Shown: positions 26,542-48,294 of the stretch, in pieces
Layout of the letters: each line of letters begins with the position of its first letter
How positions within the stretch are numbered: position 1 is the stretch's first letter
Source of the DNA: Pandoraea communis
GTDB taxonomy: Bacteria > Pseudomonadota > Gammaproteobacteria > Burkholderiales > Burkholderiaceae
Reading direction: 5' to 3'
Assembly: GCF_902459745.1 (NCBI RefSeq)
Contig: NZ_CABPSJ010000001.1
Location: 1,302,001-1,366,000, forward strand
DNA: 64,000 bases
The notes under the pieces: generated by a model
The model's input: only the letters and a program-made list of their open reading frames with translations
Databases searched by the model: none
What the model was told of the DNA's origin: nothing
Translations under genes and position numbers: made by a program

Positions 26542-27582
26542 TTACAGTTGACCACAAGTGTGGAGTAGCGAATTGAAATAGCGTGAGCGTCCGCTCGTGC
26601 GCAGGAATTGTCTGCCTGCTTCACGCATTTCCTGCCATCGCGCGTCGGACATACCCAATACTGCATCGCAAACTTCGTCGTATCCGGCGTAATGACGCAT
26701 ATCCACAAATGCCTCGGCAGGTACCAGCGAATCGATATCCGGTGCCCCCCAATAAATCGGAACCGTACCCGCGTAAAAGCAATCGAAGATTTTCTCTGTG
26801 AGGTATCCCGTCATTGGCATGTTTTCGAAGCATAACGAAAATCGATAATTCGCCAACACATCAAATTTCGATTCACAACTGCCACGATACGCCTTCATGA
26901 GCGCACGATAATGAAGCCAGTACGGCAACCATGCTGACTGTCGCGACCAACGCCGGTCCCAGCCGCGTCCATACAAATCAATCACATCCCGCTTGCCAAG
27001 CTGCGCAACAGCTTCAATGCGCTTGCTATAGAATTCCGGACGGCGAAAACGTGGATTGTGATTGCCCGCGATGACAACCAGTTTATTCTGGCGATCCGTT
27101 CTGCTCCAGGTGCCGGGGATTTCAGATTCATAAGGTTGTGGCCAGTCAAGCTTTTCTAGCTTGTCAATGTCAACACCCTTTAGCGAGTATCCGTCCCCGA
27201 TCGTATTATGAAGAAGGACTGATTCAAATTGTTGTGAGATTTCCGGCAATGCCGAATACGTTTTTGGGGCAACCAGAGGCGGTTCAAATAGAAAGAACCC
27301 TCTGAACCGAATATCGTCGCGCCCTTGCAGCGGTTGGTAACCATTCAGCAGCCCCATGGACCAGTAATGGTTCTGCTTGGCGACGACGCGCCCTTCGCGC
27401 AGTGCGTCGGCCGTATGCACAGGAATCCCTCGCGCCATCAATTGCTCCCTCAGCCGCACGAAGGGTTGAAGCGTGCCGTCGCGATTCAGGAGTGCATTGC
27501 TGGCGTCAAATAACCGATCGCCCAGGAAATGTTCGCTTGAAGGGTCGATAAATACCGCATGCTCGGGGAAAAACTGCGCCAT
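26542..27582 (-). CDS. Glycosyltransferase family 10 (fucosyltransferase-like)
   Basis: A 346-residue cytoplasmic transferase. The diagnostic GT10 motif, YRFSLCFENMPMTGYLTEKIFD with VPIYWGAPDI, is at residues 246-282; it binds the GDP-sugar donor. Known GT10 enzymes are alpha-1,3/4-fucosyltransferases using GDP-L-fucose. In this operon the GDP-sugar made is probably GDP-L-colitose (3-deoxy-fucose), so the enzyme may transfer colitose. Lower G+C than the sox genes suggests horizontal origin. It sits 13 bases after the previous gene. Confidence 0.85.
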   Translation of the reverse strand: MAQFFPEHAVFIDPSSEHFLGDRLFDASNALLNRDGTLQPFVRLREQLMARGIPVHTADALREGRVVAKQNHYWSMGLLNGYQPLQGRDDIRFRGFFLFEPPLVAPKTYSALPEISQQFESVLLHNTIGDGYSLKGVDIDKLEKLDWPQPYESEIPGTWSRTDRQNKLVVIAGNHNPRFRRPEFYSKRIEAVAQLGKRDVIDLYGRGWDRRWSRQSAWLPYWLHYRALMKAYRGSCESKFDVLANYRFSLCFENMPMTGYLTEKIFDCFYAGTVPIYWGAPDIDSLVPAEAFVDMRHYAGYDEVCDAVLGMSDARWQEMREAGRQFLRTSGRSRYFNSLLHTCGQL

Positions 27583-27595
27583 TTAATACCGCTCC

Positions 27596-28606
27596 CTATA
27601 CGCTTTTGAAATTCCGGGGCTGTCCCATTTCTGAAAATACTCGTGCAAAACGCTTTGCATAAGTGTGCTCTGACATGGTGCGCTCGTAAGCTGCGTCTGC
27701 CATACGGTTACGCAATGCTTCGTCGTCCAGGTAGTAGCGAACTTTCTCAACCAGATCGTCAGGATCGAGATAGATCGCCATTTCTTCGCCGAGACGATAA
27801 CACCGCTCCAGGCCGTCAACGTAATACGAGAGTTGGAATGCCCTGCAGGCATTGATCTCGAAATGACGGGCCTTCAGTTGTTCCACGCTCTTCTTCGATC
27901 GCAAACGGTTCAGCAGCGCTCTTGGCGACGACGCGAGAAAGCGAACATCCCACGAAGTGGAATTCGAAAGATTCAAATTAATTCTGCTTTCGTTGAATAT
28001 TTTCACCATCTCTTCGTGAGCGACGATGCCGTTAGGCCATCGATACCCCGCCACGTACACAGAAATGCCGGCCTTTTCGAGCCGTTTGATCAACCATTCG
28101 CGATAGGGGTGCCATGCACCAACAAACGATACGTCGTGTTGCTTCTCAAGGCCGAGCGGTTTGTAGCGAGCCTCGTTGACTCCGAACGGCATGTGAAGTG
28201 AGTGATGTATGCCGAGGCGCTCGTATTTGCGCTTGCTTTCAAAATCGGGCGACGTGAAATAATGAAAATGCGGCGCCCAAAAACGTGAAAAATCGACTCG
28301 CCACGTGTCGTCGTGGAAAAAACATAAGGTTTGCGTATGATCGCGGACCTTATCCACCGTTTCGGGTGTCAACTGGTCGGTATACAAAGAGAAAATGGCG
28401 ACGTCGGGCTTCATTGATGTGACGCGATCAAGCAACGCGTCGTTCATCGCGGCCTTCCCCAGTCGCCCAAGTTCTTCCATGTAATCAAACAGCTCGACGT
28501 CGTTGCCCGCCGCCTTGAGACTTTCGAAGAAGTTGTAGTACTCGTACGAGCGGCCGCGTGAACGATCCCCGTAGTCATACTCCATGCACACAAGCAGGAT
28601 TTTCAT
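27596..28606 (-). CDS. CgeB-type glycosyltransferase
   Basis: A 336-residue protein of the GT-B fold group known as CgeB or Glyco_trans_1_2. The N-terminus MKILLVCMEYDYGDRSRG, the middle DVSFVGAWHPYREWLIKRL and a C-terminal segment ARHFEINACRAFQLSYYVDGLE with YLDPDDLVEKVRYYLDD are typical. It presumably adds one sugar of the repeat unit at the cytoplasmic face. It overlaps the flippase gene by four bases. Donor and linkage cannot be told. Confidence 0.78.
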   Translation of the reverse strand: MKILLVCMEYDYGDRSRGRSYEYYNFFESLKAAGNDVELFDYMEELGRLGKAAMNDALLDRVTSMKPDVAIFSLYTDQLTPETVDKVRDHTQTLCFFHDDTWRVDFSRFWAPHFHYFTSPDFESKRKYERLGIHHSLHMPFGVNEARYKPLGLEKQHDVSFVGAWHPYREWLIKRLEKAGISVYVAGYRWPNGIVAHEEMVKIFNESRINLNLSNSTSWDVRFLASSPRALLNRLRSKKSVEQLKARHFEINACRAFQLSYYVDGLERCYRLGEEMAIYLDPDDLVEKVRYYLDDEALRNRMADAAYERTMSEHTYAKRFARVFSEMGQPRNFKSV

Positions 28607-30192
28607 GATTCTTTAAGAATTTTGGAGCGTCGGAGCATCAACATGGCAACGGGCGACCAGAGACATGCGATCAACGCCGTACCGACTAGCGGCGTCACTC
28701 GCCCGCCCAGACCGTCGATCCAAGGTCGAAGCAGTATTGATATCGCAACGCCCAGTGCGGCAACGACCGTCACCGTCAGCAACGGCCGTAGACTGGGGCG
28801 CATCACAAAACCCGTGCCGCGCGAATGCCAGTAGAGCTGAAGTACGACCAGGGCTCCCCCAATCGCGATCGAGGGTGCCACGCCGTCGAGCCCAACGTGC
28901 GGCAGTGCGAGAAACACGAGGCCGAATGTTGCAGTCGCGCCAACCAGATTGGGCACGACAAGCGATCGCGTCTGCATGCGCAAATGGGCGCCCAGACCAA
29001 ATAGTCCGATCAATATGCGAATCCACTCTGCAATCGCGCCAAACGCTACGAAACGTGCGGCGCCCTGATACTGCGGACCCAACATCAACGCGGTCAGATA
29101 GGGTGCGCCCGCCAGTAGCGCGGAGACGCCCAGAATCGAGAGCGGCAGCAGCTTGTCGGCATAGCGAACCCACGCCGTTGCTCGGACGTGCTGATCCGGA
29201 TCGTTTGCCTGGCGGTAGAAAGCAGGTTGAAACCAGGTTGTCAGGATCGTTTCCGTGGCGGCCAGTAACGCCGCGGCAATACCATATCCTGCGACAAACA
29301 GGCCGAGATCCGCGAGTCCCAATTCCTTGGCGAGAACGAATCGGTACCCCTGCATCTGTAACCAATTCAAGCCGGCAGCCAAAGCCACGGGCCAGCAAAA
29401 GCGAAACAGGGCGACGCATCGCTCCCTTGTCAGTACTCCACGTAGCCCCCTGAACGGCTGCATTGTCGCCGGGGAAAAAAAGACGACGTAGCCGAGCACG
29501 GAGAACAGGATCTGCCCGATGATGACACCGGTCAGCCAGCTTTCCGCGCTTGCCGACCATAGGTGTACGAGAACGACAGAGAACGCCAATCCGGAGATCA
29601 AGGTTGCCAAGGTCAGCACGACGAACGCGCGTGCCCGTCCGATCATGTTCAGCGACGGCACGAGTGTCTGATTGACGGTGGCAAACAGAATGGAGCCGGC
29701 CACCAACAATGCCGGCCACCATGTCCCGGTTCCGGGTGGCACGAGCCGGGTATGAAACAGTGCCCAGATAATGGCCGCAGCAACAATCGCTACACCGCTC
29801 AGATAGAGACAATAGGCGTGAAAATAGCCACGCATCGTCTTGTTGTCCTGCCACGCGTGCAGGCGCCGGTTGATGAACATCCCGACGGGATTGATTAGCA
29901 GCATTGCGAAGAAAGCGACGCTGCTGGTGATCAGTGCCGTTTTGCCCAACTCGTGCGGCGGCAATATGGTCGTCATGACCTTGACCGTAAGGAACATCAC
30001 CGCAAACTGCAGTAGGCGGCCGACGAGTACAAAAATCACGGTGGTTTCGTCCAAAATGGGAGCAAGCGGATGCTCCTGTAGGCGTTCGCTCAGCGGGAGC
30101 GCGTCAGCAATTTTCGACTGAGCGAAGGGTGCTTGAGGCCAAGTCGACACCCCATGAATAGCAGGTAGTGGCTGACGGTGCGATAGCACCAT
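28603..30192 (-). CDS. wzx: Wzx-type oligosaccharide flippase
   Basis: A 529-residue membrane protein with about 12-14 hydrophobic segments, of the MATE-like polysaccharide transporter group (LGKTALITSSVAFFAMLLINP, MQGYRFVLAKELGLADLGLFVAGYG, GPQYQGAARFV). It flips undecaprenyl-linked repeat units to the periplasm. The first ~45 residues are hydrophilic. The start is uncertain: the ATG at 30192 gives a 103-base overlap with the upstream glycosyltransferase, but no downstream ATG precedes the first membrane helix. Confidence 0.82.
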   Translation of the reverse strand: MVLSHRQPLPAIHGVSTWPQAPFAQSKIADALPLSERLQEHPLAPILDETTVIFVLVGRLLQFAVMFLTVKVMTTILPPHELGKTALITSSVAFFAMLLINPVGMFINRRLHAWQDNKTMRGYFHAYCLYLSGVAIVAAAIIWALFHTRLVPPGTGTWWPALLVAGSILFATVNQTLVPSLNMIGRARAFVVLTLATLISGLAFSVVLVHLWSASAESWLTGVIIGQILFSVLGYVVFFSPATMQPFRGLRGVLTRERCVALFRFCWPVALAAGLNWLQMQGYRFVLAKELGLADLGLFVAGYGIAAALLAATETILTTWFQPAFYRQANDPDQHVRATAWVRYADKLLPLSILGVSALLAGAPYLTALMLGPQYQGAARFVAFGAIAEWIRILIGLFGLGAHLRMQTRSLVVPNLVGATATFGLVFLALPHVGLDGVAPSIAIGGALVVLQLYWHSRGTGFVMRPSLRPLLTVTVVAALGVAISILLRPWIDGLGGRVTPLVGTALIACLWSPVAMLMLRRSKILKES

Positions 30193-31004
30193 GCGCGCTC
30201 ACAGGCGGGGCGTTGCCGCTGCGCCCGCCACCAGTTCAGCCAGTAGACGAAACGGTACTCGACAACCGCCGGCGAGCGGGGCGTAATGCTCGACTGCCGG
30301 TATAAGTGGCGCAGCAGCCTTAGCCGCTGCCCGATCGACTCCACCCGGCTGTCGTTGCTCGCGTGAACGCGATACAGCATATGCGGCTTGGGCAACCAGA
30401 GCATCGGCCCACGTCGCAATACGCTCATCAGGAATGCCAGGTCGGCGTGCTTGCCGCCTTCCTCCGGTTTCAGGGATAGGCCATCGAGCCACTTGCGGCG
30501 GTACATATATCCCGGGAACGGTGCGGGCCTCGGGCCCGTCAAGGTCAGATAGGGCGTCACCAATGCTTCGACAGACCCAATCTCTTGCGCCTCGGTGCAA
30601 TCGCCCATAACGCGCCGCGGCGTTACCTTGTCTCCCATCATGATGTTGGCATTGCAAGCTACCGCACCCAACTCCGGACGGGCAACGAGCGCATCGCGCA
30701 AGGTCGCGACGAAGCCCGGAAGAATCAAGTCGTCATCGTGAAAATAGACGACGAACTCAGCGGAGCTTTCCGTGATAACCACGCGGAAATGGTCCAGCGC
30801 AGGTAGCGCCGGCCGACGTCTGATATAGGTGACGAGAGGAAATTCCCTCGCAACCATGTGCTCGACCTCATCGCCCTCGGAGTTATCCGAGACGATGACC
30901 TGAACGTCGTCATTCATCTCGCAAATTGCCGAACGCAAGGTCTCCTGTAGGTATTTCGGGCGATCGCGAGAAAGGATGTACAACTGCACCTTTGCAGTCG
31001 TCAT
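30090..31004 (-). CDS. Glycosyltransferase family 2
   Basis: A 304-residue GT-A transferase. VQLYILSRDRPKYLQETLRS begins the nucleotide-binding fold, VSDNSEGD follows, and YFHDDDLILPGF holds the DxD-like metal motif at about residue 90. It lacks membrane helices and should act on the lipid-linked intermediate in the cytoplasm. The ATG at 31004 overlaps the stop of the transketolase C-terminal subunit gene (ATGA), tying the two in translation. Confidence 0.84.
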   Translation of the reverse strand: MTTAKVQLYILSRDRPKYLQETLRSAICEMNDDVQVIVSDNSEGDEVEHMVAREFPLVTYIRRRPALPALDHFRVVITESSAEFVVYFHDDDLILPGFVATLRDALVARPELGAVACNANIMMGDKVTPRRVMGDCTEAQEIGSVEALVTPYLTLTGPRPAPFPGYMYRRKWLDGLSLKPEEGGKHADLAFLMSVLRRGPMLWLPKPHMLYRVHASNDSRVESIGQRLRLLRHLYRQSSITPRSPAVVEYRFVYWLNWWRAQRQRPACERAWCYRTVSHYLLFMGCRLGLKHPSLSRKLLTRSR

Positions 31005-31933
31005 GTCGCAACCCCGCCTGAACTCGACAGAATGCCTTCGATGCGCTTGCGAATCGTGGGAGTATCCAGTCGATGCTCGCTGAGCAGATATTCGTACGTG
31101 CCGCAATAGGCGGAGAACCGGTCTTCCACGCCGATTCGATGGACGCGCGGAGTGTCCGCCCCCAGATCGGCGAGGCTTTCGGCCACGCAACTACCCAGTC
31201 CGCCGGCGACGACGTGTTCTTCCAGTACGAAGATGTCCTTTGCGCGTGCACCGATGCCACGCAACGCCGTCGTGTCGAGGGGTTTGATTGACGGGATGCT
31301 CCAAACGTCGGCCTGCATGCCCGCATCGACCAGATTGACTGCCGCACTTACCATTGAGCCGGTCGCGATCAAAACAATCTCGCGATTGCGCTCGCGCACC
31401 TTAAGGGAGGTGCCGGGTGTCAGCGTGAGCGCGCCGTTATGCACATCGCCGCGATCCGATTTTCCCATGCGCAGGTAAACTGGGCCGCGCGTGTCGAAAG
31501 CAAGCTGCATCGTCGCCGCCATCTCGTAACGATCCGCCGGCGACAAGATGGTAAGTCCCGGCAACGGACGCGTCACGGCGACATCTTCCATCGACTGATG
31601 GCTCGCACCCAAGTGGCTGTAGACAAATCCTGCGCCGTCGCCAATCAGCATGACCGGCAGGTTCTCGTAGCAGATGTCGATCTTGATTTGCTCAAGCACG
31701 CGCACGGGAACGAATGCAGCAAGGCCGTACACTACAGGCCGAAAACCCGCGCGCGCCAACCCGGCGGCCACGCCGACCATGTTTTGTTCGGCCACGCCAC
31801 AGTTGATGTATTGATTCGGGCAAGCGCGACGAAACGCATCAAACAGTGCGTAGCCGTGATCGCCGGTCAGCAGCAGAATTTTTGGATTGGCTAGCGCTGC
31901 GCTTACCAGGGCATCTGAGAAGGCGGCTCTCAT
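31001..31933 (-). CDS. Transketolase-like protein, C-terminal (pyrimidine-binding) subunit
   Basis: A 310-residue protein corresponding to the Pyr and C-terminal domains of transketolase/DXS. FINCGVAEQNMVGVAAGLA (positions around 43-62) holds the Glu that activates thiamine diphosphate; SHLGASHQSMEDVAVTRPLPG and VEDRFSAYCGTYEYLL follow. It needs the N-terminal subunit encoded just upstream to form the active site. Split transketolases transfer two-carbon ketol units. In a CDP-dideoxyhexose operon it may act on a nucleotide sugar rather than on pentose phosphates; this is an inference. Confidence 0.85.
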   Translation of the reverse strand: MRAAFSDALVSAALANPKILLLTGDHGYALFDAFRRACPNQYINCGVAEQNMVGVAAGLARAGFRPVVYGLAAFVPVRVLEQIKIDICYENLPVMLIGDGAGFVYSHLGASHQSMEDVAVTRPLPGLTILSPADRYEMAATMQLAFDTRGPVYLRMGKSDRGDVHNGALTLTPGTSLKVRERNREIVLIATGSMVSAAVNLVDAGMQADVWSIPSIKPLDTTALRGIGARAKDIFVLEEHVVAGGLGSCVAESLADLGADTPRVHRIGVEDRFSAYCGTYEYLLSEHRLDTPTIRKRIEGILSSSGGVAT

Positions 31934-32736
31934 TTGGCAGATCCCAATTCATTCATTGCATTACGATAGGTGTCGCTGTTCAGACGAGTGTAGTGCCAGA
32001 TATTGGCGTTCTCCATGAACGACACGCCCTTGCCCTTGATCGTGTTGGCAACGATCGCCTTGGGGCGCCCATCGCGCCGCTGCCTTGCAGCCAAATAGGC
32101 GGCGCCGATCGCATTTTCGTCGTGCCCGTCGATGGTTAGGGCATCGAAGCCGAAGGCCGCGAACTTGGCTTCGATGTCGCCGAGTCTCATGACCTCGTCC
32201 GTCGATCCCATTGCCTGGAAACCATTCTTGTCGATGATGACCACGAGATTATCCAGCTTGAATTGGCTCGCGAACAACGCTGCTTCCCAGATCGTGCCCT
32301 CGTTGATTTCGCCATCACCCACCACGGCATAGCACATCTGATCGGTGTGATTAAGCTTGGCCGCGAGCGCCAGACCGGCGGCCACCGACAACCCGTGGCC
32401 AAGCGAGCCTGTCGTGGCTTCCACCCCGGGGACATGCACATCGGCGAGTCCCTTCAGGCGTGTGCCGTCCTTGAAATAGTTCGCCAGATCCTCCTGCGTC
32501 AGCCAGCCGAGTTCGGCAAGGCAGACGTATTGCGCCATGACGCCATGGCCCTTGCTCAGGACGAGATAATCGCGTTCCGGCGCATCGGGCTGGTCAACCC
32601 TGAGCCTCAGATGATCGCGATACAGAACGGCAATCAGTTCAACGATGGAGAACGCACAGCCGATGTGCACGGTGCCGCCGGCATACGCCATGTCGATGAT
32701 CGCTCTACGAATCGCTTGTGGGTTAAATTTGCTCAT
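31930..32736 (-). CDS. Transketolase-like protein, N-terminal (diphosphate-binding) subunit
   Basis: A 268-residue protein with the thiamine-diphosphate motif VVGDGEINEGTIWEAA, ending in the DKNGFQAMG segment, and AGGTVHIGCAFSIVELIAVLY at the N-terminus with the His expected near the cofactor. GHGLSVAAGLALAAKL supplies the hydrophobic core. It overlaps the C-terminal subunit gene by four bases and the upstream epimerase gene by four bases, so all three are translated together. Role as for its partner. Confidence 0.85.
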   Translation of the reverse strand: MSKFNPQAIRRAIIDMAYAGGTVHIGCAFSIVELIAVLYRDHLRLRVDQPDAPERDYLVLSKGHGVMAQYVCLAELGWLTQEDLANYFKDGTRLKGLADVHVPGVEATTGSLGHGLSVAAGLALAAKLNHTDQMCYAVVGDGEINEGTIWEAALFASQFKLDNLVVIIDKNGFQAMGSTDEVMRLGDIEAKFAAFGFDALTIDGHDENAIGAAYLAARQRRDGRPKAIVANTIKGKGVSFMENANIWHYTRLNSDTYRNAMNELGSAK

Positions 32737-33779
32737 AGTCTGGTCGTCGTCCGAGCCCAGGAAATGGTCTTGTGAATTGCATCGTTCAGAGCGACATACT
32801 CCTCCAGGCCCAGTTCGCCTCGCGCCTTGGATGTGTCGGGGACGTAGCGTTGCGGCAGGCCGGCAGTCGGCGTGCCGGCAACGGTCAGTGCAGCATTCGA
32901 ACCGCTTGCGTCGCGAATACGTTCGGCCAAGGTGCGGATAGAGACAACATGCTCCGACCCCACGTTGTAGGCGGCGCCGGCGGTGCCGCGCATCAGCATC
33001 TGCAGCAGCCAGACGCAGGCGTCAGCTACGTACAGATACGTCCTGCATGGGCTGCCGTCACCCTGTATCCGGATCGGATTGCCGGCGACGGCATCACGAA
33101 TGAAATTACCCGCCGCAAAGGTTCCGTCGAGAGGCAGCCCCGGGCCGATCAACGCGTAAATGCGTGCAATGCAGGCTGCCATGGCGGTGTGCTCCGACAT
33201 CGCGCACGTTAACCATTCCGCCGCCCGCTTACCCTGTCCGTACGCACTGGCGACATCCAGTGGCGATGGGGCCTGCGGGAACGTTTCGGAGACCGCCGCC
33301 ACTTCCGGTGGTTGCGGTCCGTACACGGCACCGCTCGAGGTCAGCAAGAATCGCTGAGCACCGTTCTCCAGTGCGGCCTCGAGCACTCGACGGGTTCCCA
33401 TCAACGCCGTATCGAAGGTCTGTAAACGGTTGGCTGCCTTGCGAGGATCGGACACGTCGGTCGCCGCGTGAATGCACAAGTCAACCGCGCCGATATTGCG
33501 ATCGAACGACACCGCGTCGCCGCGCACGAACCGTACGTGAGACGCGCCAAATACCTGTATCGCCCGCGCGCACGCGGCGTCGGGATCGCGGCTAAGTGCC
33601 ACGACCTGGATGTCGCTGTCGAGCATAGCGTTCGCGTACCGCACGCTTTCCACCAGCCAGGTGCCGATGAAGCCCGTTGCGCCAGTGAGGAACAGACGCG
33701 CGCCGCGATAGCGGTGCCAAAACTCGGCGGTCCGTTCGACAACCTGCTCGATATCCCGCGAAGGCAAGGCGATAAACAT
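32733..33779 (-). CDS. NAD(P)-dependent epimerase/dehydratase of the SDR family
   Basis: A 348-residue extended SDR with a Rossmann motif LTGATGFIGTWL at about residue 30, a TSSGAVYG motif and the catalytic YGQGK (YxxxK). Between rfbH and the transketolase genes it likely acts on the CDP-4-keto-3,6-dideoxyhexose or on its two-carbon adduct, as the C-4 reductases (RfbJ, AscF, Prt-type) and YerF do in other organisms. Which one cannot be decided here. It lies nine bases after rfbH, downstream on the same strand. Confidence 0.78.
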   Translation of the reverse strand: MFIALPSRDIEQVVERTAEFWHRYRGARLFLTGATGFIGTWLVESVRYANAMLDSDIQVVALSRDPDAACARAIQVFGASHVRFVRGDAVSFDRNIGAVDLCIHAATDVSDPRKAANRLQTFDTALMGTRRVLEAALENGAQRFLLTSSGAVYGPQPPEVAAVSETFPQAPSPLDVASAYGQGKRAAEWLTCAMSEHTAMAACIARIYALIGPGLPLDGTFAAGNFIRDAVAGNPIRIQGDGSPCRTYLYVADACVWLLQMLMRGTAGAAYNVGSEHVVSIRTLAERIRDASGSNAALTVAGTPTAGLPQRYVPDTSKARGELGLEEYVALNDAIHKTISWARTTTRL

Positions 33780-33788
33780 GGCCGTCGC

Positions 33789-35094
<1,306 letters not shown>

Positions 35095-35102
<8 letters not shown>

Positions 35103-36180
35103 AAATTCCGTTGCTGCTGTTTTGATACTCGGCGATCTGGCACAACGTCATCGCGCGCATATCAGTGTTGTGAAGGTGTGCTTTGTGCCAAGCGACAATC
35201 TTTTCCAACGCCTGAACAAGTGTCCAGCGCGGCTGCCACGCCAACTGCGAATGCGCTTTGGTGCAATCGAGCTTCAGAATATTGGCCTCGTGCGGCTGCG
35301 GATTTGCGTCAAGGCGCCAGGTGCGCCCGTCGCCCCATAGCTCAACGAATCGCTCGACGATCCATTGCACGGGTCGCGCGTCGCTGCCGGCAGGTCCGAA
35401 ATTCCATCCTTCCGCGAAGGCCGCGCCTTCTTCGTATAACTTCTCGGCCAGCAGCAGGTAACCGCTGAGCGGCTCCAGCACATGCTGCCAAGGGCGGATG
35501 GCATGCGGACTACGCACCAGAATGTCACTGCCTTGCACCATGGCCCGAACAATATCGGGCACCAATCGATCCAATGCCCAATCGCCACCGCCGATAACGT
35601 TACCTGCACGCGCGCTTGCCAGACCGACGCCATGTTCTCCGTGGCGTTGCGTATTGAAATATGAGTTTCGATACGCGGCCGTGACGAGTTCGGCACAACC
35701 TTTACTGCTACTGTATGGATCGTAGCCGCCCATTGCCTCGTTCTCGCGATAAGGCCACGGCCACTCGCGATTCTCGTAGCACTTGTCGCTGGTCACGTTG
35801 ACCACCGATTTAATCCCCGGTGTCGCGCGCACGGCTTCCAGCAGATGGACAAGCCCCATTACGTTTGTCGAGTATGTCTCGACCGGCTCTGCATACGAAT
35901 AGCGAACTAATGGCTGCGCTGCCATATGAATGACGATCTCGGGCTGTGCTTCGCTCACGGCTCGACGCAGCGAGGCGCCGTCACGCACATCCCCAATCAC
36001 CGAGCGCATGTTCTCCGCGACCCGAGCGACCTCGAACAGACTGGGCTGCGTCGCTGCAGGCAACGCGTAACCGGTGACTTCGGCGCCGAGCTGCTGTAGC
36101 CAAAGTGCCAGCCAGCCCCCCTTGAAGCCGGTATGGCCTGTCAGAAAAACGCGCTTTCCGTGCCAGAATGTCGGATTCAT
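35095..36180 (-). CDS. rfbG: CDP-glucose 4,6-dehydratase
   Basis: A 361-residue extended SDR with [16 protein letters not shown] at the N-terminus, [21 protein letters not shown] in the middle and the catalytic YDPYSSSKG. These identify CDP-glucose 4,6-dehydratase. It makes CDP-4-keto-6-deoxyglucose from the rfbF product. The ATG at 36180 forms TGATG with the rfbF stop, so I prefer it to an ATG six bases earlier. It belongs to the CDP branch of the operon. Confidence 0.95.
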
Positions 36181-36950
36181 CACCATGTCTTCCACGGCGC
36201 CTTGCCGCTGGTCCACAGGTCCTCCAGCAACACCTTGTCACGCAAGGTATCCATTGGCTGCCAGAAACCATCGTGGGAGTAAGCTGCCAATTGACCGCTG
36301 CTTGCCAGGCATTCGAGCGGCGCGCGCTCCCAGATCGTACTGTCGTCGCGGACCAGGTCAATAACCTTCGGCGAGAGAACGAAGAAGCCACCGTTGATCT
36401 TGGCGCCGTCGCCCTTGGGCTTTTCTTCGAACGTCAACACACTATTGCCTTGCATGTCGAGCGCACCAAATCTGCCCGGCGGCGTGACCGCAGTCAAGGT
36501 CGCCTGGACGCCTGTACTGCGGTGGAAGGCGATTAGTTTCGTGATATCCACATCACTGACGCCATCGCCGTAAGTGAAGCAGAATGCCTCCTCATTCTCC
36601 ACGTAGCGCGCCACCCGCTTCAGCCGGCCGCCAGTCATGGTTTCCTCGCCAGTATCCACCAACGTCACACGCCACGGTTCGGCGTGCCGCTGATGTACTT
36701 CCATCTCGTTTCGCTGCATGTCAAAGGTCACGTCTGACGTATGCAGGAAGTAATTGGCGAAGTATTCCTTGATTACGTAGCCCTTATACCCGCAGCAAAT
36801 TACGAAATCGTTGACGCCATGCGTCGAATACATCTTTAAGATGTGCCAGAGAATCGGCTTGCCGCCGATCTCGATCATCGGCTTGGGCTTGAGATGGGTT
36901 TCTTCGGAAATACGGGTTCCAAGTCCACCGGCGAGAATCACTGCTTTCAT
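36180..36950 (-). CDS. rfbF: Glucose-1-phosphate cytidylyltransferase
   Basis: A 256-residue nucleotidyltransferase with [20 protein letters not shown] and [15 protein letters not shown] at the N-terminus and [14 protein letters not shown] for the metal site, characteristic of RfbF/DdhA. It joins CTP and glucose-1-phosphate to CDP-glucose, committing carbon to the CDP-3,6-dideoxyhexose pathway. It lies three bases after the colD gene in the direction of transcription. Confidence 0.95.
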
Positions 36951-36953
36951 GAC

Positions 36954-38120
36954 TTAGATCTGCCTCAACGCGGAAATAGCGTTTTCAATCGGATAGTGAT
37001 GGTTGCCAACGAACAGGCCGGAATGATCGATGTGCTCCGCGTTTCGCAATTCCCCTGCAATCGAATGATCGAAATACTTCACGACATCGTTCTTGGCAAA
37101 GTTACCTGCCACGATCGGGCGGCACTCGAAGCCTGCTTCGTTGAGTCGCTTGACCAGCGTATCTCGGGTCAGCGACGAACCCCGGCGAATCACCAGACTG
37201 AACCCGAACCAGCTGCTCTCACCGATTTCGCGTTGGATCATCAACTCCGGATGACCTGCCATCACTTCTTGAAGTCGTGCGCCGTTGGCGCGGCGCGCAC
37301 GAATCAGCTCGGGCAACCGCTTGACCTGCTCGATACCGATCGCGCCCGACATCTCCAGCGGGCGGACGTTATAGCCGGGCAGCATGAAGCGGAACGATTC
37401 CTTGAACGGATCATCGCTCTTCTCGCCGCACACGTGGTTGAACTTCGGCAGGTTGCGAGTCCAGCCATGCGCGCGCAACGACAGGAGGATGTGATAAAGC
37501 TCCTCGTCGTCGGTGACGATCATGCCGCCTTCCATCGTCGAGATATGGTGCGAGAAAAAGGCGCTGTAGCTGCCCATGATCCCGAACGTACCGGTCTGAC
37601 GATTCTCGAAAGTCGCTCCCATCGACTCGCAGTTGTCTTCGATCATGACGATTTCGCGCTTGCCGATGATCTGCTTGAGGCGGGCGAAGTCATTGGGGTT
37701 GCCCAGCAGGTTCACGACCATGATCGCGCGAGTTTTTTCGGTAATCGCGGCTTCGAGTGCATCCAGATCATAGTTGAGCGTTTCGAGATCGATATCGACG
37801 AAACGCAACTTCAGTCCGTATTGGTACAGAGGGTAGTACGTGGTGCTCCACGACACGGCGGGCACGATCACTTCGTCGCCTCGCTCCAGCTTGAACGCCG
37901 GATTCTTCGTGTAGAACTGTGCTGCCACCATCAATAGATTGGCCGACGATCCGGAATTCACCATCACGCAGTACTTGCTGCCGACATAGTCAGCAAAGCA
38001 ACGCTCGAATTCCGCTACTTTCGGCCCCATGGAAAACATGCCAGACGCGACAACGCGCTGAATGGCGTCATACTCCTCGGGTCCCCAGGAAGACGTGGCG
38101 AGTGGATATTGAAAGCTCAT
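36954..38120 (-). CDS. colD: GDP-4-keto-6-deoxymannose 3-dehydratase (ColD)
   Basis: A 388-residue PLP enzyme of the DegT fold. The Schiff-base Lys is replaced by His in FFSHHISTMEGG (first His, residue 191), as in E. coli ColD, where it is His188. Other ColD-like segments: VPAVSWSTTYYPLYQYGLKL, NLLGNPNDF, LPGYNVRPLEMSGAIG, and CRPIVAGNF. ColD uses glutamate and PLP to remove the C-3 hydroxyl of GDP-4-keto-6-deoxymannose, on the way to GDP-L-colitose. Unlike RfbH it has no iron-sulfur cysteines and needs no reductase. Confidence 0.92.
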   Translation of the reverse strand: MSFQYPLATSSWGPEEYDAIQRVVASGMFSMGPKVAEFERCFADYVGSKYCVMVNSGSSANLLMVAAQFYTKNPAFKLERGDEVIVPAVSWSTTYYPLYQYGLKLRFVDIDLETLNYDLDALEAAITEKTRAIMVVNLLGNPNDFARLKQIIGKREIVMIEDNCESMGATFENRQTGTFGIMGSYSAFFSHHISTMEGGMIVTDDEELYHILLSLRAHGWTRNLPKFNHVCGEKSDDPFKESFRFMLPGYNVRPLEMSGAIGIEQVKRLPELIRARRANGARLQEVMAGHPELMIQREIGESSWFGFSLVIRRGSSLTRDTLVKRLNEAGFECRPIVAGNFAKNDVVKYFDHSIAGELRNAEHIDHSGLFVGNHHYPIENAISALRQI

Positions 38121-39043
38121 CCGAGATAGTCCTTCAAGTAATAGTCATAGGTTTTGGCAATGCCGTCCTCGAGACTTGATTTCGCTTGCCAGCCCCAGGT
38201 GGTTTGTCTTTCGATCGACACGAGTTTCTGCTTCATACCGACCGGTTTGCTCAGATCGTGCTCGAACTTGCCCTGCCAACCGATGACCCTGGCGGCGATT
38301 TCATAATATTCATTGATGCTGAAATCATGACCCAGCCCGATGTTTGTCATCTCGGGCAGTCCCTCGAAATCGTCGAGCGCATGGAGGATTGCGTCGGCCA
38401 GATCGCCGGCGTACATGAATTCGCGCCGCGCCGTGCCATCCCCCCAGATCTCGACCGAATCCTGCTCGGAAACCTTGGCGGTGTGGACCTTGTGGATGAT
38501 GGCCGGAATCAGATGTGAATTCTGCGGTGCGAATTTGTCGAAGCGGCCGTAGAGGTTGCAGGGAATGAGCGTCTTGTAGTCGAGCCGGCTGTTTTCGCGG
38601 CGCACGTACTGGCAAAGCCGTGCGGTCACGATCTTGGCGATTGCATAGCCCTCGTTCGTCGGTTCAAGCTCGCCTTGCAGTACCATCTCCTCCGATAGCG
38701 GGTTCGCGGCATTGCGCGGATACATGCAAGAGCTTCCGAGGTTCAGTAACCGTGGCACGCCGATGGCCTTGGCGGCCATGACCACGTTGCGTCCCATGTC
38801 GAGATTCTTGACAAGAAAATCGACCGGCGCCGCAATATTTGCCTGTATGCCGCCAACCAGCCCGGCAGCGTGGATCACGACATCGGGACGGTGTTCGGCC
38901 ATATAGGCTTCAACTTTCGCGTAGTCGCACAGATCCAGCTCGCGTGAGGTTGGGGTCAGGAATACCCGTCGGCCCGCACCGGCGCGCTCGACGATATTGC
39001 GCCCGACCATGCCGCTGCCGCCCGTCAACAAGATACGCTGCAT
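38117..39043 (-). CDS. colC: GDP-colitose synthase (ColC), GDP-fucose synthase family
   Basis: A 308-residue SDR of the GDP-fucose synthase family with LLTGGSGMVGRNIVERAG, GSSCMYPRNAANPLSEE, and the catalytic NEGYAIAKIV. Adjacent colD, with which it overlaps by four bases, makes GDP-colitose synthase (5-epimerase/4-reductase) the best reading. It could instead or also make GDP-L-fucose, since Fcl and ColC are homologous and the sequence alone does not separate them with certainty. Confidence 0.8.
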   Translation of the reverse strand: MQRILLTGGSGMVGRNIVERAGAGRRVFLTPTSRELDLCDYAKVEAYMAEHRPDVVIHAAGLVGGIQANIAAPVDFLVKNLDMGRNVVMAAKAIGVPRLLNLGSSCMYPRNAANPLSEEMVLQGELEPTNEGYAIAKIVTARLCQYVRRENSRLDYKTLIPCNLYGRFDKFAPQNSHLIPAIIHKVHTAKVSEQDSVEIWGDGTARREFMYAGDLADAILHALDDFEGLPEMTNIGLGHDFSINEYYEIAARVIGWQGKFEHDLSKPVGMKQKLVSIERQTTWGWQAKSSLEDGIAKTYDYYLKDYLG

Positions 39044-39045
39044 GG

Positions 39046-40185
39046 TCAGCCTTGATAGCGCAGGGCCTTGTGGCCCGAGGCCTTGACCTGTAATTCGAAC
39101 TCCGCTTCGCGGAGATCGGACTCGGCCATTTCGCGTACCAGCTCGGCAAAGCTTGTCTGTGGCTTCCAGCCCAACTTGTCGTGTGCCTTGCTCGCGTCGC
39201 CCAGGAGCGTCTCGACTTCGGTCGGGCGGAAATAGCGTGGATCGACGGCAACGACAGCCTTGCCGATCAGCGTCTGCGCACTCTCGCCTTCGGCAGCGGT
39301 CAGAATGCCCACTTCATCGACCCCCTCGCCGTGCCATTCAAACTGAAGGCCAAGGGCATCGCCGGCGCGATTGACGAAATCGCGCACACTATGCTGCTCG
39401 CCGGTCGCGATCACGAAGTCGTCCGGAGTGTCCTGCTGCAACATCAACCACTGCATCTCGACGTAATCGCGAGCGTGACCCCAGTCACGCAAGGCGTTCA
39501 GGTTGCCAAGGAACAGCTTTTCCTGCAGGCCGAGCTTGATGCGCGCAAGTGCGCGGGTGATTTTGCGCGTGACAAACGTCTCGCCGCGGATCGGGCTTTC
39601 GTGATTGAAAAGAATGCCGTTGCAGGCATACATGCCGTAGGCTTCGCGGTAGTTCACCGTGATCCAGTAGGCATAGAGTTTGGCCACCGCATAGGGGCTG
39701 CGCGGGTAGAACGGCGTCGTTTCCTTCTGCGGTATTTCCTGCACCAGGCCGTACAGTTCGGACGTCGATGCCTGGTAGAAACGGGTCTTTTTTTCCAGGC
39801 CGAGAATCCGCATGGCTTCGAGAATTCGCAATGCGCCCAAACCATCCGAATTGGCCGTGTACTCGGGCTCTTCGAACGACACCGCGACATGGCTCTGTGC
39901 GGCGAGGTTATAGATCTCGTCCGGCTGGGTCTGCTGAATAATGCGCACGAGACTTGACGAGTCGGTCAGATCGCCATGATGCAGTATGAAGCGCGGATCC
40001 GGGACGTGAGGGTCTTGGAACAGATGGTCAATCCGGTCAGTATTGAACAGCGAAGTGCGGCGTTTGATGCCGTGCACTTCATAGCCCTTGCCAAGCAAGA
40101 ACTCGGCCAAGTACGCGCCATCCTGACCGGTAACGCCCGTAATCAGGGCAACTTTTCGTTCGCTTTTAACCATTTGTTCGTCCAT
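39046..40185 (-). CDS. gmd: GDP-mannose 4,6-dehydratase
   Basis: A 379-residue extended SDR. Signatures: [53 protein letters not shown], and the catalytic [10 protein letters not shown]. It converts GDP-mannose to GDP-4-keto-6-deoxymannose, the branch point for colitose, fucose and related sugars. I start at the ATG at 40185 (a second ATG is at 40173). The 5' end overlaps manC by about 20 bases. Confidence 0.94.
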
Positions 40186-41632
40186 AAGTATCTTCAAATC
40201 GTACGATGTCGTCCTCGCCCAGATAGCTGCCCGACTGAACCTCGATGATTTCGAGATCAAATTTGCCTGGGTTTTCAAGCCGATGGACGGTCCCCAGCGG
40301 GATATAGGTGGACTGGTTTTCCGACAGCAGGATGGTTTCGTCGCCGCGTGTCACTTTGGCCGTGCCATGCACGACGACCCAGTGCTCCGCGCGGTGATGG
40401 TGCATCTGTAGACTAAGCGATGCGCCCGGTTTCACAACAATGCGCTTGACCTGGAACCGCTGCCCGGCGTCAATGCTGTCGTACCATCCCCAAGGGCGGT
40501 GCACCTTGCGGTGGGTGTTGGCCTGGCTAAATTGCTCCACCTTGAGGCGCGACACGATATGCTTGACGTCTTGGGTGGCGTCTTTGTGGGCCACCAATAC
40601 GGCATCGGGTGTCTCAACCACGATCAGGTCGTCCACGCCAACACACGCCACCACGCAATCTTCGGCAAATATAAGATTATCGCGTGCATTGTGCATAAGC
40701 ACATCGCCTCGCGTGACGTTGCCGGCATCGTCCTTTTCGGACACCTGCCACAGAGATTCCCACGAGCCGACGTCCGACCAGCCTGCCGACAACGGGATCA
40801 CGTGGCACGGCATCTCGGCGGACTGGGCGGCCGACAGCGGTTCCATGACCGCGTAATCGACTGAGTCCGACGGACACGCCTCGAAGGCGGCAGCATCGAT
40901 GCGGCGAAAATCAACGTCCGTGCGACCTCCTTCGATGGCGGCGCGACAGGCTTCAAGCATCGTTGGCTGGAAGCGAGCCAAGGCTTGTATCCAGGCGCTC
41001 GCACGCAACACGAACAGTCCGCTGTTCCAGAGATATTCGCCGCTTTCGAGATATCGCTGTGCAGTAGCGTTGTCAGGTTTTTCGACAAATTGCGTCAGCG
41101 CCAGCGCAACACCGTCCGTCCGTCGCTGACCCGTGCGAATGTAGCCGTAACCCGTCTCGGCTCGGTCAGGCACGATACCGAAGGTCACGATCCCGCCGTC
41201 GGCGGCGAGCGGGAGTGCCGATGCCACGGCCGCCTCAAAAGCCGCCACGTTGCTGATCACATGATCGGCAGGCATTGCGAGCAGTACTGGGTCCGCATCC
41301 GATTGCATTGCGACCAAGGCGGCCAGGGTGAGCGCGGGTGCGGTATTTCGGCCAAACGGTTCGAGCACGATTTGGCTCGAGGGCTTGCCCGCCGCTAACA
41401 TCTGCTCTGCGGTAATGAAGCGATACGCCTCATTGCAAACGATGATCGGCGCTCGCAGTGCTGCGGTCTTCGACAGCCCGTCCACGCGTCGGGCCGTTTC
41501 CTGCAACATCGAGCGCTCGCACGTCAACTGCAGCAACTGCTTTGGATATTGCTCGCGTGAAAGCGGCCATAAACGCGTGCCGGATCCGCCCGAAAGAATC
41601 ACCGGCTGAAGCACTACTTCGCCAAATTCCAT
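40166..41632 (-). CDS. manC: Mannose-1-phosphate guanylyltransferase/mannose-6-phosphate isomerase
   Basis: A 488-residue bifunctional enzyme. The N-terminal nucleotidyltransferase has [19 protein letters not shown] and the FVEKPD motif; the C-terminal cupin (about residues 370-480) has the metal-binding [18 protein letters not shown]. It supplies GDP-mannose for gmd. As first gene of the leftward sugar block it is preceded by 137 bases with an A/T-rich palindrome TTTAATTAAA (41717-41726). Confidence 0.94.
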
Positions 41633-41716
41633 ACTGTTCCAATACAAATCGCGGGTTGAATGGGATGAAGAAATGCATCGTCATCCGTTGGCTTTGCGTA
41701 TGCCGAACGGCGATCG

Positions 41717-42573: not shown

Positions 42574-43641
42574 ATGTCCAGCAAGTTGATCATCCACGCC
42601 ACGAACGTCCACCAGGGCGGTGGCCGAACATTGCTCGACGCGCTGCTCCGGCAAGCCCCTGGAGGTCCGATCACAGCGTTGCTGGACAGCCGTATGGCGC
42701 TGGCGGAAGGTGCGGTGCGAGGCATCGATATCGTGCGCGTCAAACCTACGCCGATGGCACGCCTGCGTGCCGAGCGGTGGTTGGCCGCCAATACGGGCAG
42801 CGGCGACGTCGTGCTCTGCTTTGGCAACTTGCCTCCCCTGTTCAAGCTGCGCGGCTGGGTGCGCGTCTTTCTGCAAAATCGCTACCTGATCGACGAGACC
42901 CCCTTGGACAACTTCTCGCTCAAAGACCGTTTGCGTATCTCCGTTGAGCGCAGATGGCTTTCAGGACGTATCGGTAACGTCGATGAATTCATCGTGCAGA
43001 CGCCTACCATGAAGCGGTTGCTTGACGAGAAAACGCATGGACAGCCGCTGGCGCATGTTCTGCCGTTTGTTACCGATAAGCGGCACTACTCGCGCAGCAT
43101 TGGCGCCGGCGTCACCGCTCGAACCGCTTGCCAAGGGCGTTTCGTCTACGTGTCATCAGGCGAGCCGCACAAAAACCATCGTACATTGCTACAGGCCTGG
43201 TGCCTGTTGGCCGAAGAAGGACTGTTTCCGAGCCTGCAGGTCACGCTGGACGCTACGCGATTCGCCGACTTGTGCGGCGACATCGATGCTATGCGCGCCC
43301 GCCATGGGCTTCATGTCACGAATCTCGGCCATGTGCCGCACAGCGAAGTCCGCGCATTGTACGCAGACGCTGACGCACTGATCTTCCCGTCCACGCTGGA
43401 ATCGTTTGGCTTACCATTGATCGAGGCCAGACAAGCCGGGTTGCCCGTGCTCGCTTCTGAGCTCGACTATGTTCGCGATGTGCTCGATCCCGAGGCCGCG
43501 TTCGATCCCTATTCGCCGTATTCGATAGCGCGCGCAGTCAAGCGCTTCTGCGGTAATCAAGAGCTTTCATTGCCATTGCGCGATGCCTCCGAATTTATGA
43601 ATTGCATCGTTAAAAAGGGCAAACTATCTTGCGAGTCCTGA
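42574..43641 (+). CDS. Glycosyltransferase family 1/4
   Basis: A 355-residue GT-B transferase: N-terminal IIHATNVHQGGGRTLLDALL, and a C-terminal GT-4 motif with GEPHKNHRTLLQAW, LGHVPHSEVRALYADADALIFPSTLESFGLPLIEA. The E(x7)E signature binds the sugar nucleotide. It is the first gene of the rightward block and overlaps wbuB by 13 bases. The sugar it adds is unknown; the block makes UDP-L-FucNAc. Confidence 0.84.
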   Translation: MSSKLIIHATNVHQGGGRTLLDALLRQAPGGPITALLDSRMALAEGAVRGIDIVRVKPTPMARLRAERWLAANTGSGDVVLCFGNLPPLFKLRGWVRVFLQNRYLIDETPLDNFSLKDRLRISVERRWLSGRIGNVDEFIVQTPTMKRLLDEKTHGQPLAHVLPFVTDKRHYSRSIGAGVTARTACQGRFVYVSSGEPHKNHRTLLQAWCLLAEEGLFPSLQVTLDATRFADLCGDIDAMRARHGLHVTNLGHVPHSEVRALYADADALIFPSTLESFGLPLIEARQAGLPVLASELDYVRDVLDPEAAFDPYSPYSIARAVKRFCGNQELSLPLRDASEFMNCIVKKGKLSCES

Positions 43642-44879
43642 TCGTCAGCCAGTATTTCTGGCCGGAAAATTTCCGCATCAACGACCTGGCGTCCGGGCTT
43701 CGGGAGCGGGGTCACGATGTCGAGGTCCTGACTGCCCGGCCGAATTATCCTGCGGGAAAGCTATTCAAGGGCTACGGCTGGTTCAAGCCTTGGCGGGAAA
43801 CATACGATGGCATCCCGGTTTTCCGCGTGCCGATCGTGCCCAGGTTTGAAGGTCGGGGGCGTCATCTTGCGATGAACTATCTGTCCTTTGTTGTCTCCGG
43901 ATGCCTCCTGGCGCCCTGGTTCTGCCGTGGCAAGTACGACGTCATCTTCGTCTATGGAACATCGCCGATCACGGTGGCGTTGCCCGCTATGATGTTGCGC
44001 GCTCTCAAGCGCGCCCCGATGCAATTGCAGATTCTCGATCTCTGGCCGGAAACGCTTGAAGCGATTGGCGTGACGCGATCGCGCTGGGCGGCGCGTCTGG
44101 CTGACGGACTGGTGCGCTTTATCTACCGGCATTGCGATCAAGTGCTCGTTCAATCGCGCGGGTTTGTCGAGTCCGTGGTATCCCGGGGCGTGCCTGCGGA
44201 GCGCGTCGACTACTTCCCGACGACAGCAGAGTCCCTGTTTTCGGCATCGAACGGCGACGCTGCGGGGCCACCCGTGACGGTGCCCGGTGAATTCAAAGTG
44301 ATGTTTGCCGGCAATGTCGGGGATGCGCAGGACTTCGGTACGATTCTCGATGCGGCCGCGCTCACGGCACACGAGCCACGCATCACCTGGGCCATTGTGG
44401 GCGACGGCCGCCGGTCGGCTTGGGTGGCATCGGAAGTGTCGCGCCGTGGTCTGAGCAATGTGGCGCTGCTTGGGCGGCACCCGCTAGATACGATGCCTGC
44501 CTTTTTCGCACAGGCCGACGCATTGCTGGTTACGCTCAAGCGCGACCCGGTATTCGCGCTGACGATTCCTGGCAAGTTGCAGTCCTACCTCTCGTTCGGC
44601 AAGCCGGTTGTTGCGGCGCTCGACGGCGAGGGCGCGCGCTTGGTCAAGGAGTCCGGCGCCGGGTTGGTGTGTGATGCAGGAGACGCGGAAGGCTTGGCTC
44701 GGTCGGTGCTGTCTCTCGCCGCCATGAACGAAACGCAGCGCGCTGAACTTGGCCAGAACGGCCGACGCTATTTCGGCACTCATTTCGAGCGTAACATGCT
44801 ACTTGACCGACTTTGCGGTTGGATGCATGCCTTGGCTCAAGGTGGCCGTAAAGCATCAACTGAAAATGAACGTATATAA
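43629..44879 (+). CDS. wbuB: WbuB-type L-fucosamine transferase
   Basis: A 416-residue GT4-like transferase close to WbuB: VLIVSQYFWPENFRINDLA, LTARPNYPAGKLFKGY, YGTSPITVALPAM, LQILDLWPETLEAIGV, and FAGNVGDAQDFGTILDAA. WbuB adds L-FucNAc to the lipid-linked GlcNAc-type primer; the adjacent fnlA, fnlB, fnlC genes make its donor. The start is TTG at 43629, which lies inside the upstream gene; the family N-terminus begins exactly at this codon. Confidence 0.87.
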   Translation: MRVLIVSQYFWPENFRINDLASGLRERGHDVEVLTARPNYPAGKLFKGYGWFKPWRETYDGIPVFRVPIVPRFEGRGRHLAMNYLSFVVSGCLLAPWFCRGKYDVIFVYGTSPITVALPAMMLRALKRAPMQLQILDLWPETLEAIGVTRSRWAARLADGLVRFIYRHCDQVLVQSRGFVESVVSRGVPAERVDYFPTTAESLFSASNGDAAGPPVTVPGEFKVMFAGNVGDAQDFGTILDAAALTAHEPRITWAIVGDGRRSAWVASEVSRRGLSNVALLGRHPLDTMPAFFAQADALLVTLKRDPVFALTIPGKLQSYLSFGKPVVAALDGEGARLVKESGAGLVCDAGDAEGLARSVLSLAAMNETQRAELGQNGRRYFGTHFERNMLLDRLCGWMHALAQGGRKASTENERI

Positions 44880-44880
44880 A

Positions 44881-47015: not shown

Positions 47016-47019
47016 GACC

Positions 47020-48156: not shown

Positions 48157-48229
48157 GCGTCTGAGTCGGGGGGGGCATAGTGTTAAACGGGCGAAGCCAT
48201 GAACGAAAGATCGCGTGCTTCGCTCGATA

Positions 48230-48294
48230 AGCGTCTGCCGGAAGCGGCGGCTTAATATGAGAATAGCGTCGCGCCGGGGAACGCCGCAGACGCT
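48230..48294. repeat. Long-spaced inverted repeat upstream of the initiating transferase
   Basis: AGCGTCTGC (48230-48238) and GCAGACGCT (48286-48294) are perfect complements 47 bases apart, in the 246-base gap before the WecA-like gene. The spacer includes TTAATATGAGAAT, a possible -10 region. It may be a promoter with flanking operator halves or an mRNA stem. Confidence 0.4.

Follow-up and report, generated by a model that had tools for sequence, protein, structure and literature searches.

The window analysed here, 64,000 nucleotides of the Pandoraea communis genome (G000, 5.7 Mb; contig NZ_CABPSJ010000001.1, positions 1,302,001 to 1,366,000), carries on its minus strand an operon in which the two genes of a split transketolase, TKN and TKC, stand among genes of the cytidine diphosphate (CDP)-3,6-dideoxyhexose pathway. 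TKN (31930..32736, 268 amino acids) encodes the N-terminal subunit, which binds the pyrophosphate of thiamine diphosphate (ThDP; Pfam Transketolase_N, 5.5e-40), and TKC (31001..31933, 310 amino acids) the pyrimidine-binding and C-terminal subunit (Transket_pyr, 1.8e-27; Transketolase_C, 1.5e-14). They are preceded by a short-chain dehydrogenase/reductase (SDR) gene of the extended epimerase/dehydratase type (32733..33779, 348 amino acids; Pfam Epimerase, 1.9e-35), for which we propose the role of the yersiniose protein YerF, and by rfbH (33789..35102, CDP-4-keto-6-deoxyglucose 3-dehydratase, E1), rfbG (35095..36180, CDP-glucose 4,6-dehydratase) and rfbF (36180..36950, glucose-1-phosphate cytidylyltransferase). 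RfbF (TIGR02623, 477 bits against a cut-off of 300), RfbG (TIGR02622, 509 against 278, scanned from 36174) and RfbH (NF011936, 769 against 423) all score above their curated NCBIfam cut-offs, which identifies the CDP-3,6-dideoxyhexose pathway. The whole operon reads manC-gmd-fcl/colC type-ColD type-rfbF-rfbG-rfbH-SDR-TKN-TKC-glycosyltransferase-flippase-two glycosyltransferases, with four-base overlaps at the SDR/TKN, TKN/TKC and TKC/glycosyltransferase junctions (the last being atga). The coordinates and Pfam domains agree with a first-pass annotation of this DNA, which had described N- and C-terminal transketolase subunits that follow directly on rfbF-rfbG-rfbH, precede a glycosyltransferase gene and overlap each other and an SDR gene by four bases each. 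The closest named relative of the region is that of Pandoraea terrigena (locus L005), whose cluster proteins, taken one by one, are 85-99% identical.

In PDB sequence matches the nearest solved chain for TKN is 6yak, the N-terminal part of the Carboxydothermus split transketolase, and that for TKC is 6yaj, followed by DXS. The pair has the pyrophosphate, pyrimidine and C-terminal domains of the split transketolase superfamily, together with its catalytic and ThDP-binding residues, GDG motif included. By its Pfam domains the fold is thus of the transketolase type and not the single-chain acetohydroxyacid synthase (AHAS)/decarboxylase fold of YerE, and no AHAS-type gene is found in the window. 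The transketolase equivalog, a single-chain model (cut-off 488) by which a split protein is penalised, gives the two halves 257 and 161 bits, and the dxs equivalog (cut-off 466) gives 137 bits for TKC and 34 bits for TKN. Because two full-length transketolases are encoded elsewhere in the genome (C4 and C7), the pair is not the housekeeping enzyme, an assignment we rejected also on the grounds that phosphate-binding residues are replaced in the pair; identity with DXS was rejected given scores far under the dxs cut-off and two DXS-type genes elsewhere (C2:809579 and C10:30419).

Relatives of the pair were gathered by a short peptide-pattern scan of a genome collection of 84,980 species, which retrieves close relatives only (23 loci) and thus undercounts their group, here called clade A, and by a profile search that covered 398 genomes from the same family plus 398 from the phylum and added 16 loci after removal of duplicates. 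Scores in the family search drop from 439 to 280 bits with nothing between, and an intact clade-A pair is present in 17 of the 398 family genomes and in two of the 398 phylum genomes, namely the window's own and G470. Before counting, L086 and L028 (same record as L005) were dropped, the window repeats L003, L029 and L175 were counted once, and the decayed copy L048 (genome G306, one TAG) was left out of the resulting 40 loci and of the residue count at the H100 position discussed below; it sat in the 'other' group of the residue alignment. L048 nevertheless belongs to clade A: its better pieces show 66-76% identity with the window pair, the donor position is leucine, and an SDR gene precedes it. 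Clade A is monophyletic, with support of 0.83 in one tree and 0.99 in another. As a side observation, the clade-A pairs of L095, L027 and L048 (two Burkholderiaceae-level genomes and one Variovorax metagenome-assembled genome, MAG) are interrupted by an in-frame stop or have broken or inverted parts, reflecting either decay or assembly faults.

The neighbourhood of the pair recurs throughout the clade. rfbF, rfbG and rfbH are all present in 36 of the 40 clade-A loci, an SDR gene stands before or after the pair in 35, and a YerE-like AHAS-type enzyme in none. RfbH and TKN are encoded on the same strand within 1.5 kb in 35/40; at L010 4.2 kb of other genes lie between them. Apart from the window, 38 loci were scored for the TKN/TKC junction (L024 was left unscored) and 34 of them have the four-base overlap, and these counts carry the first-pass description of the gene arrangement beyond what chance would produce. 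The four loci in which rfbH is absent are L006 and L013, whose contigs (7.3 and 4.7 kb) start just before TKN, and L019 and L025. Eleven of the 40 loci have, directly before rfbF, a gene for a ddhD-type E3 reductase (Pfam), and ten of these read ddhD-rfbF-rfbG-rfbH-TKN-TKC, the exception being L009 with an SDR gene between rfbH and TKN. What follows TKC in the ten is an SDR gene of the window kind (seven loci), the start of an SDR gene at a contig end (L023) or an SDR gene of another kind (L026 and L102). The yersiniose genes lie in the order ddhDABC-yerE-yerF. The layout of the ten loci is that of the yersiniose gene set (PMC4509608), except that the pair stands where yerE would be. In the Rhodoferax MAG locus L010, genes for a YhcG-type nuclease and for two proteins of the Schlafen/AlbA_2 kind are found inside and just after the operon (2860-5652 and 8802-9959), looking like an inserted mobile or defence piece.

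RfbH is encoded in 55 of the 398 family genomes, and inspection of all 55 neighbourhoods found clade A in 17, A2 (a second, divergent transketolase pair type) in 5, an AHAS-type ThDP enzyme in 15 and none of these in 18; three of the 15 AHAS-type matches (L146, L153 and L159) are weak, at 216-257 bits and 31-50% identity. Every one of the 17 genomes that hold an intact clade-A pair thus falls within the 55 (hypergeometric 2e-16, relatedness uncorrected), and in these 55 none of the 22 transketolase pairs occurs together with any of the 15 acetolactate-synthase-type ThDP enzymes (hypergeometric P 9e-5, relatedness uncorrected). The class-wide sample has RfbH in 10 of 369 genomes, comprising the window's own with clade A, three with an AHAS-type enzyme, five that show either a different reductase or no recognised gene, and one whose contig is too short to judge. 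For one AHAS-type protein the top solved match is 8rph, presumably the YerE-like enzyme JanthE. In a single tree of 54 sequences, from which SDR2-type SDRs were left out, the SDRs found beside clade A, A2, the pairs accompanied by rfbF-rfbG only and the AHAS-type enzymes are intermingled, and this fits a common step after branching. The recurring gene context supports the view that the pair serves specifically the CDP-3,6-dideoxyhexose (RfbFGH) pathway and replaces YerE. Since the pair is tied to this pathway and stands in for YerE, formation of a two-carbon branch on CDP-4-keto-3,6-dideoxyglucose is the best reading of its putative function.

Clade A keeps the ThDP-binding and catalytic residues, i.e., the equivalents of yeast H30, H69, H263, E418 and H481. 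Codon L97 of TKN (32446..32448) falls at the position of H100 in Escherichia coli transketolase (H103 in yeast), and here leucine is found in 40/40 clade-A pairs versus histidine in 49/49 other split pairs (5/5 A2, 3/3 rfbF-rfbG-only and 41/41 remaining pairs). The Carboxydothermus enzyme, both transketolases of the window's own genome and the pair beside rfbFGH on Methylovirgula plasmid pHY1 have histidine as well, and the one of the two own-genome DXS enzymes that was compared has phenylalanine. In TKC, codons D99-G100 (31634..31639) place G100 at yeast H469, L108 (31610..31612) stands at E. coli D469 (yeast D477) and K158 (31460..31462) at E. coli R520 (yeast R528), and these three replacements, by G, L and K, are present in all 40 clade-A pairs. 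In transketolase, yeast H469 (a phosphate contact), R528 and D477 serve sugar phosphates or acceptor hydroxyls. D99 is a second position at which clade A resembles DXS: aspartate is found in 40/40 clade-A pairs as well as in the genome's own DXS, whereas the non-clade-A pairs listed have other residues. Of the residues that mark transketolase proper (EC 2.2.1.1), the pair thus lacks the histidine for the donor C1-hydroxyl (H100/H103), those of the phosphate site and D477.

Literature precedent connects the H100 position to donor choice. PMC7661550 gives this position as consistently F in DXPS, reports for H100L Geobacillus transketolase a pyruvate activity of one third that of DXPS and states that the Carboxydothermus split enzyme, which has the histidine, does not accept pyruvate. 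An H102L/H474S transketolase uses pyruvate and 2-oxobutyrate (PMC7696235), and E. coli transketolase H100L/D469T/S385Y, whether or not R520Q is added, is active on pyruvate with aromatic aldehydes (PMC10787763); at E. coli positions 100, 469 and 520 clade A has L, L and K. From these residues we predict pyruvate as the donor of the clade-A pair. Because the A2 and Methylovirgula pairs beside rfbFGH keep the histidine, the H-to-L change more likely follows the donor than the acceptor.

We therefore consider it probable, judging from sequence and gene order, that TKN and TKC form a heteromeric transketolase-type ThDP enzyme that would transfer the two-carbon unit of pyruvate to C-4 of CDP-4-keto-3,6-dideoxy-D-glucose, leading to a yersiniose-type sugar. 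In the pathway we propose, RfbF would yield CDP-glucose and RfbG CDP-4-keto-6-deoxyglucose, from which RfbH and an E3-type reductase encoded elsewhere would produce CDP-4-keto-3,6-dideoxyglucose. Pyruvate would then be decarboxylated on ThDP by TKN/TKC and the resulting hydroxyethyl carbanion would attack the 4-ketone to give a CDP-4-C-acetyl sugar, the acetyl group of which would be reduced to 1-hydroxyethyl by the SDR, a step inferred from family and position, to deliver a yersiniose-type 4-C-(1-hydroxyethyl)-3,6-dideoxyhexose. This octose would be added by a glycosyltransferase to an O-antigen in which colitose is probably present as well. For clade A in general we lean, with somewhat less assurance, to the view that it represents a natural H100-to-L change giving pyruvate-using enzymes without a sugar-phosphate site that perform acetyl branching in place of YerE, with H100-keeping pairs making the hydroxyacetyl counterpart. 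The first-pass annotation had suggested ketol transfer by a transketolase-type ThDP enzyme: two-carbon branching is upheld by the gene context, but the ketol donor is probably wrong in view of the leucine at H100 and the replaced sugar-phosphate residues. The new branched octose expected there is probably not formed either, a yersiniose-type sugar following from the pyruvate prediction, and a hydroxyacetyl product fits A2 better. Caryophyllose, which had been named as a kindred sugar together with erwiniose, offers no transketolase precedent, being assigned to a YerE-like enzyme in PMC12247030. Erwiniose is likewise assigned to an enzyme of the YerE kind.

Split pairs that keep the donor histidine also occur beside rfbFGH outside clade A, at L147, L150, L155, L157, L161 and L238. 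The last is the Methylovirgula plasmid pHY1, which reads rfbF-rfbG-SDR-rfbH-TKN-TKC, and at L214 (2417-8359) a pair follows directly on rfbF-rfbG and precedes an SDR gene, with neither rfbH nor ColD. From these two arrangements, the one with rfbH downstream of the SDR gene and the other lacking it, the common factor of such pairs would be a CDP-4-keto sugar. The A2 and Methylovirgula pairs may be candidates for the formation of a 4-C-hydroxyacetyl sugar, and L214, L179 and L182, rfbF-rfbG pairs in which no rfbH was found, possibly make a branched 6-deoxyhexose without 3-deoxygenation. In these three loci an SDR gene adjoins the pair and GtrA (L214, Pfam) and GT2 genes lie downstream; L179 and L182 have two genes between rfbG and the SDR gene, by eye sulfotransferase-like and kinase-like, with no family assignment. 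The window operon also shares its scaffold with loci that carry other enzymes: with L147, which has an A2 pair, it has in common ColD (73% identity), Fcl (67%), the flippase (42%) and two glycosyltransferases (57 and 51%), and with L224, where a plain SDR gene follows rfbH, ColD, Fcl and Gmd (62-68%).

For many further split pairs from these samples, no genes of this kind lie nearby. Those at L176 (G241) and L177 are found near genes for an SIS-domain protein and a GDP-mannose-dehydratase-like SDR, and those at L193, L195, L199 and L201 near a radical S-adenosylmethionine protein and a methyltransferase, families that were read on L201 only. Among the rfbH loci with an AHAS-type ThDP enzyme, L134 (9615-10724, Pfam), L142 and L164 contain a 3-dehydroquinate-synthase-like gene, which hints at a cyclitol step, and at L136 rfbH is split.

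The remaining genes make the region look like an O-antigen locus. Directly after TKC, on the minus strand like the genes below, lies a GT2 glycosyltransferase (30090..31004, Pfam), the candidate for transfer of the branched sugar, followed by a Wzx-type flippase (28603..30192, Pfam Polysacc_synt_3) and two more glycosyltransferases (26542..28606; by Pfam GT10 at 26542-27582 and Glyco_trans_1_2 at 27596-28606). At the other end, manC (40166..41647, mannose-1-phosphate guanylyltransferase; Pfam NTP_transferase and MannoseP_isomer), gmd (39046..40188, guanosine diphosphate (GDP)-mannose 4,6-dehydratase; TIGR01472, 588 bits against a cut-off of 415), an fcl/colC-type SDR gene (38117..39043; 322 bits with the GDP-fucose synthase model, under its cut-off of 500) and a ColD-type pyridoxal phosphate 3-dehydratase gene (36954..38120) precede rfbF. 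The top NCBIfam model of the ColD-type enzyme is RfbH (266 bits, under the cut-off), and its translation has His-His at the position of the aminotransferase lysine; its substrate is probably GDP-4-keto-3,6-dideoxymannose, placing it in the colitose branch. On the plus strand, 42574-51361 encodes proteins of GT4, FnlA/WbjB, WbjC/WbcJ, WecB and WbpM types, of which only WecB passes a curated cut-off, and the O-antigen probably contains N-acetyl-L-fucosamine and a 6-deoxy-amino sugar in addition.

Several other functions can be considered for the pair. Its transketolase domains, the identical gene context and the proposal of split transketolases for such a reaction in miharamycin and amipurimycin biosynthesis (PMC12247030) would agree with ketol (hydroxyacetyl) transfer from hydroxypyruvate or a ketose phosphate, giving after reduction a 4-C-(1,2-dihydroxyethyl)-3,6-dideoxyhexose. 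We regard this as unlikely on the grounds that the histidine for the donor hydroxyl is leucine in every clade-A pair, that a ketose phosphate is an improbable donor with the phosphate-site residues gone and that the histidine-keeping pairs beside the same genes suggest themselves as the ketol version. Use of another aliphatic 2-oxo acid, 2-oxobutyrate or a longer hydroxylated one, would produce a longer branch, as thought for the YerE-like caryophyllose enzyme. Donors do vary among YerE-like enzymes (PMC12247030) and the engineered H102L/H474S transketolase accepts 2-oxobutyrate (PMC7696235), but pyruvate is the simplest donor and no recurrent companion gene for a special oxo acid was recognised among neighbours that were mostly clustered, not annotated, so that we hold this option to be distinctly improbable.

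The good match of TKC to DXS would suit an ordinary accessory transketolase or DXS-like enzyme that supplies precursors and is carried along in the cluster; since the genome encodes two DXS enzymes and two full-length transketolases at other sites, both equivalog cut-offs are far from reached, phosphate-binding residues are replaced and linkage to rfbFGH is tight, we consider this reading very improbable. Equally improbable is an acceptor on the GDP side, GDP-4-keto-3,6-dideoxymannose, formed by Gmd and the ColD-type enzyme. The ColD set does belong to the operon of the window and of L005, L007 and L102, and lies near the operon in L010, but close ColD relatives (at least 70% identity) are present at 5/40 clade-A loci versus rfbFGH at 36/40, and at L214 the pair stands beside rfbF-rfbG with neither ColD nor RfbH. 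As a general rule for clade A, a GDP-sugar acceptor was rejected on the same counts.

A number of observations weigh against the assignment of the pair as a pyruvate-dependent branching enzyme of the CDP-3,6-dideoxyhexose pathway. As to context, L019 and L025, both MAGs with contigs long enough to judge, lack rfbG and rfbH and are either real exceptions or assembly faults; G306, an eighteenth family genome with a score under the gap, has its decayed clade-A copy and an SDR gene with no RfbH match; and no SDR is found at threshold in 5/40 loci (L006, L023, L024, L025 and L027), of which L023 is cut by a contig end where an SDR gene begins and L027 is broken. No E3 reductase (ddhD/RfbI) is seen among the genes of the window operon, the top match elsewhere in the genome being 45% identical. 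As to the donor, the argument leans mainly on one residue, whose change from H to L is one evolutionary event kept and not 40, clade A being monophyletic, and clade A keeps a histidine at the H474 position, a residue also mutated in the best of the Geobacillus variants in PMC7696235. Most other split pairs likewise lack D469 and the phosphate-site residues H461 and R520; because the loss is so widely shared, it argues only against an ordinary transketolase, and we dropped it as an argument for pyruvate. The SDR family is versatile, so that sequence does not fix the position reduced, and the glycosyltransferases of L224, the plain-reductase variant of the scaffold, are merely 30 and 37% identical to those of the window. 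Finally, no Pandoraea O-antigen structure is among the open-licence matches listed, and none is known for a clade-A strain.

The predicted branching enzyme can be set beside several known systems. YerE/YerF of Yersinia pseudotuberculosis, with homologues in Pseudomonas WCS417, resemble the window genes in having rfbFGH (ddhABC) upstream, a ThDP enzyme with an SDR-type gene and a two-carbon C-4 branch from pyruvate, as predicted for the pair, but YerE is a one-chain enzyme of the AHAS/decarboxylase type whereas the window pair is a two-chain transketolase type. DXS has in common with the pair the (predicted) pyruvate donor, the lack of histidine at the H100 position and Asp at the D99 position; it differs in being a single chain with an aldehyde-phosphate acceptor, and the pair scores far under its cut-off. 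AviB1/AviB2 are of the alpha-keto acid dehydrogenase type. Enzymes of the AviB1/AviB2 kind are likewise encoded by two genes, use ThDP and install an acetyl branch from pyruvate (PMC4753412), but in Gram-positive antibiotic clusters and on other sugars. The Carboxydothermus hydrogenoformans split transketolase (6yak/6yaj, PMC7661550) has two chains with the same domains and is the top solved match for both subunits; unlike the pair it keeps the H100, H461, D469 and R520 equivalents and does not use pyruvate. The engineered H100L/H102L transketolases of E. coli and Geobacillus have the same donor-site change, and changes at 469 and 520 too, but are laboratory-made with aldehyde acceptors, whereas the pair is natural and split and is predicted to act on a nucleotide keto-sugar. 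A further parallel is offered by the split transketolases of the miharamycin and amipurimycin clusters and the 13 streptomycete candidates of Krug et al., for which keto-sugar branching has been put forward (PMC12247030); these differ in belonging to streptomycetes and antibiotic clusters and in the hydroxyacetyl transfer proposed. In that 2025 review, transketolases that attack ketones to form chiral tertiary alcohols are described as proposed, with none characterised, and all 13 candidates are from streptomycetes.

Yersiniose A is known in Burkholderia brasiliensis, Yersinia, Budvicia and Pseudomonas (PMC4153317, PMC4753412), in B. brasiliensis as a constituent of a yersiniose-A-containing polysaccharide (PMC4153317). 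With this sugar established in these organisms, the predicted product would be known and the enzyme new; among the matches listed in the open-licence literature (titles and abstract openings) there is no account of a transketolase beside rfbFGH. If the prediction is true, the clade-A pairs would offer natural enzymes from which biocatalysis with cheap pyruvate could start, and together with the histidine-keeping pairs beside the same genes they would be the first of the transketolase type shown with a ketone acceptor in Gram-negative surface polysaccharides. Clade A provides a Gram-negative candidate set for which the predicted acceptor is clear and the donor prediction is sharp and testable, and the related O-antigen scaffolds, equipped with clade A, A2 or a plain reductase, suggest different ways in which these bacteria may decorate one sugar.

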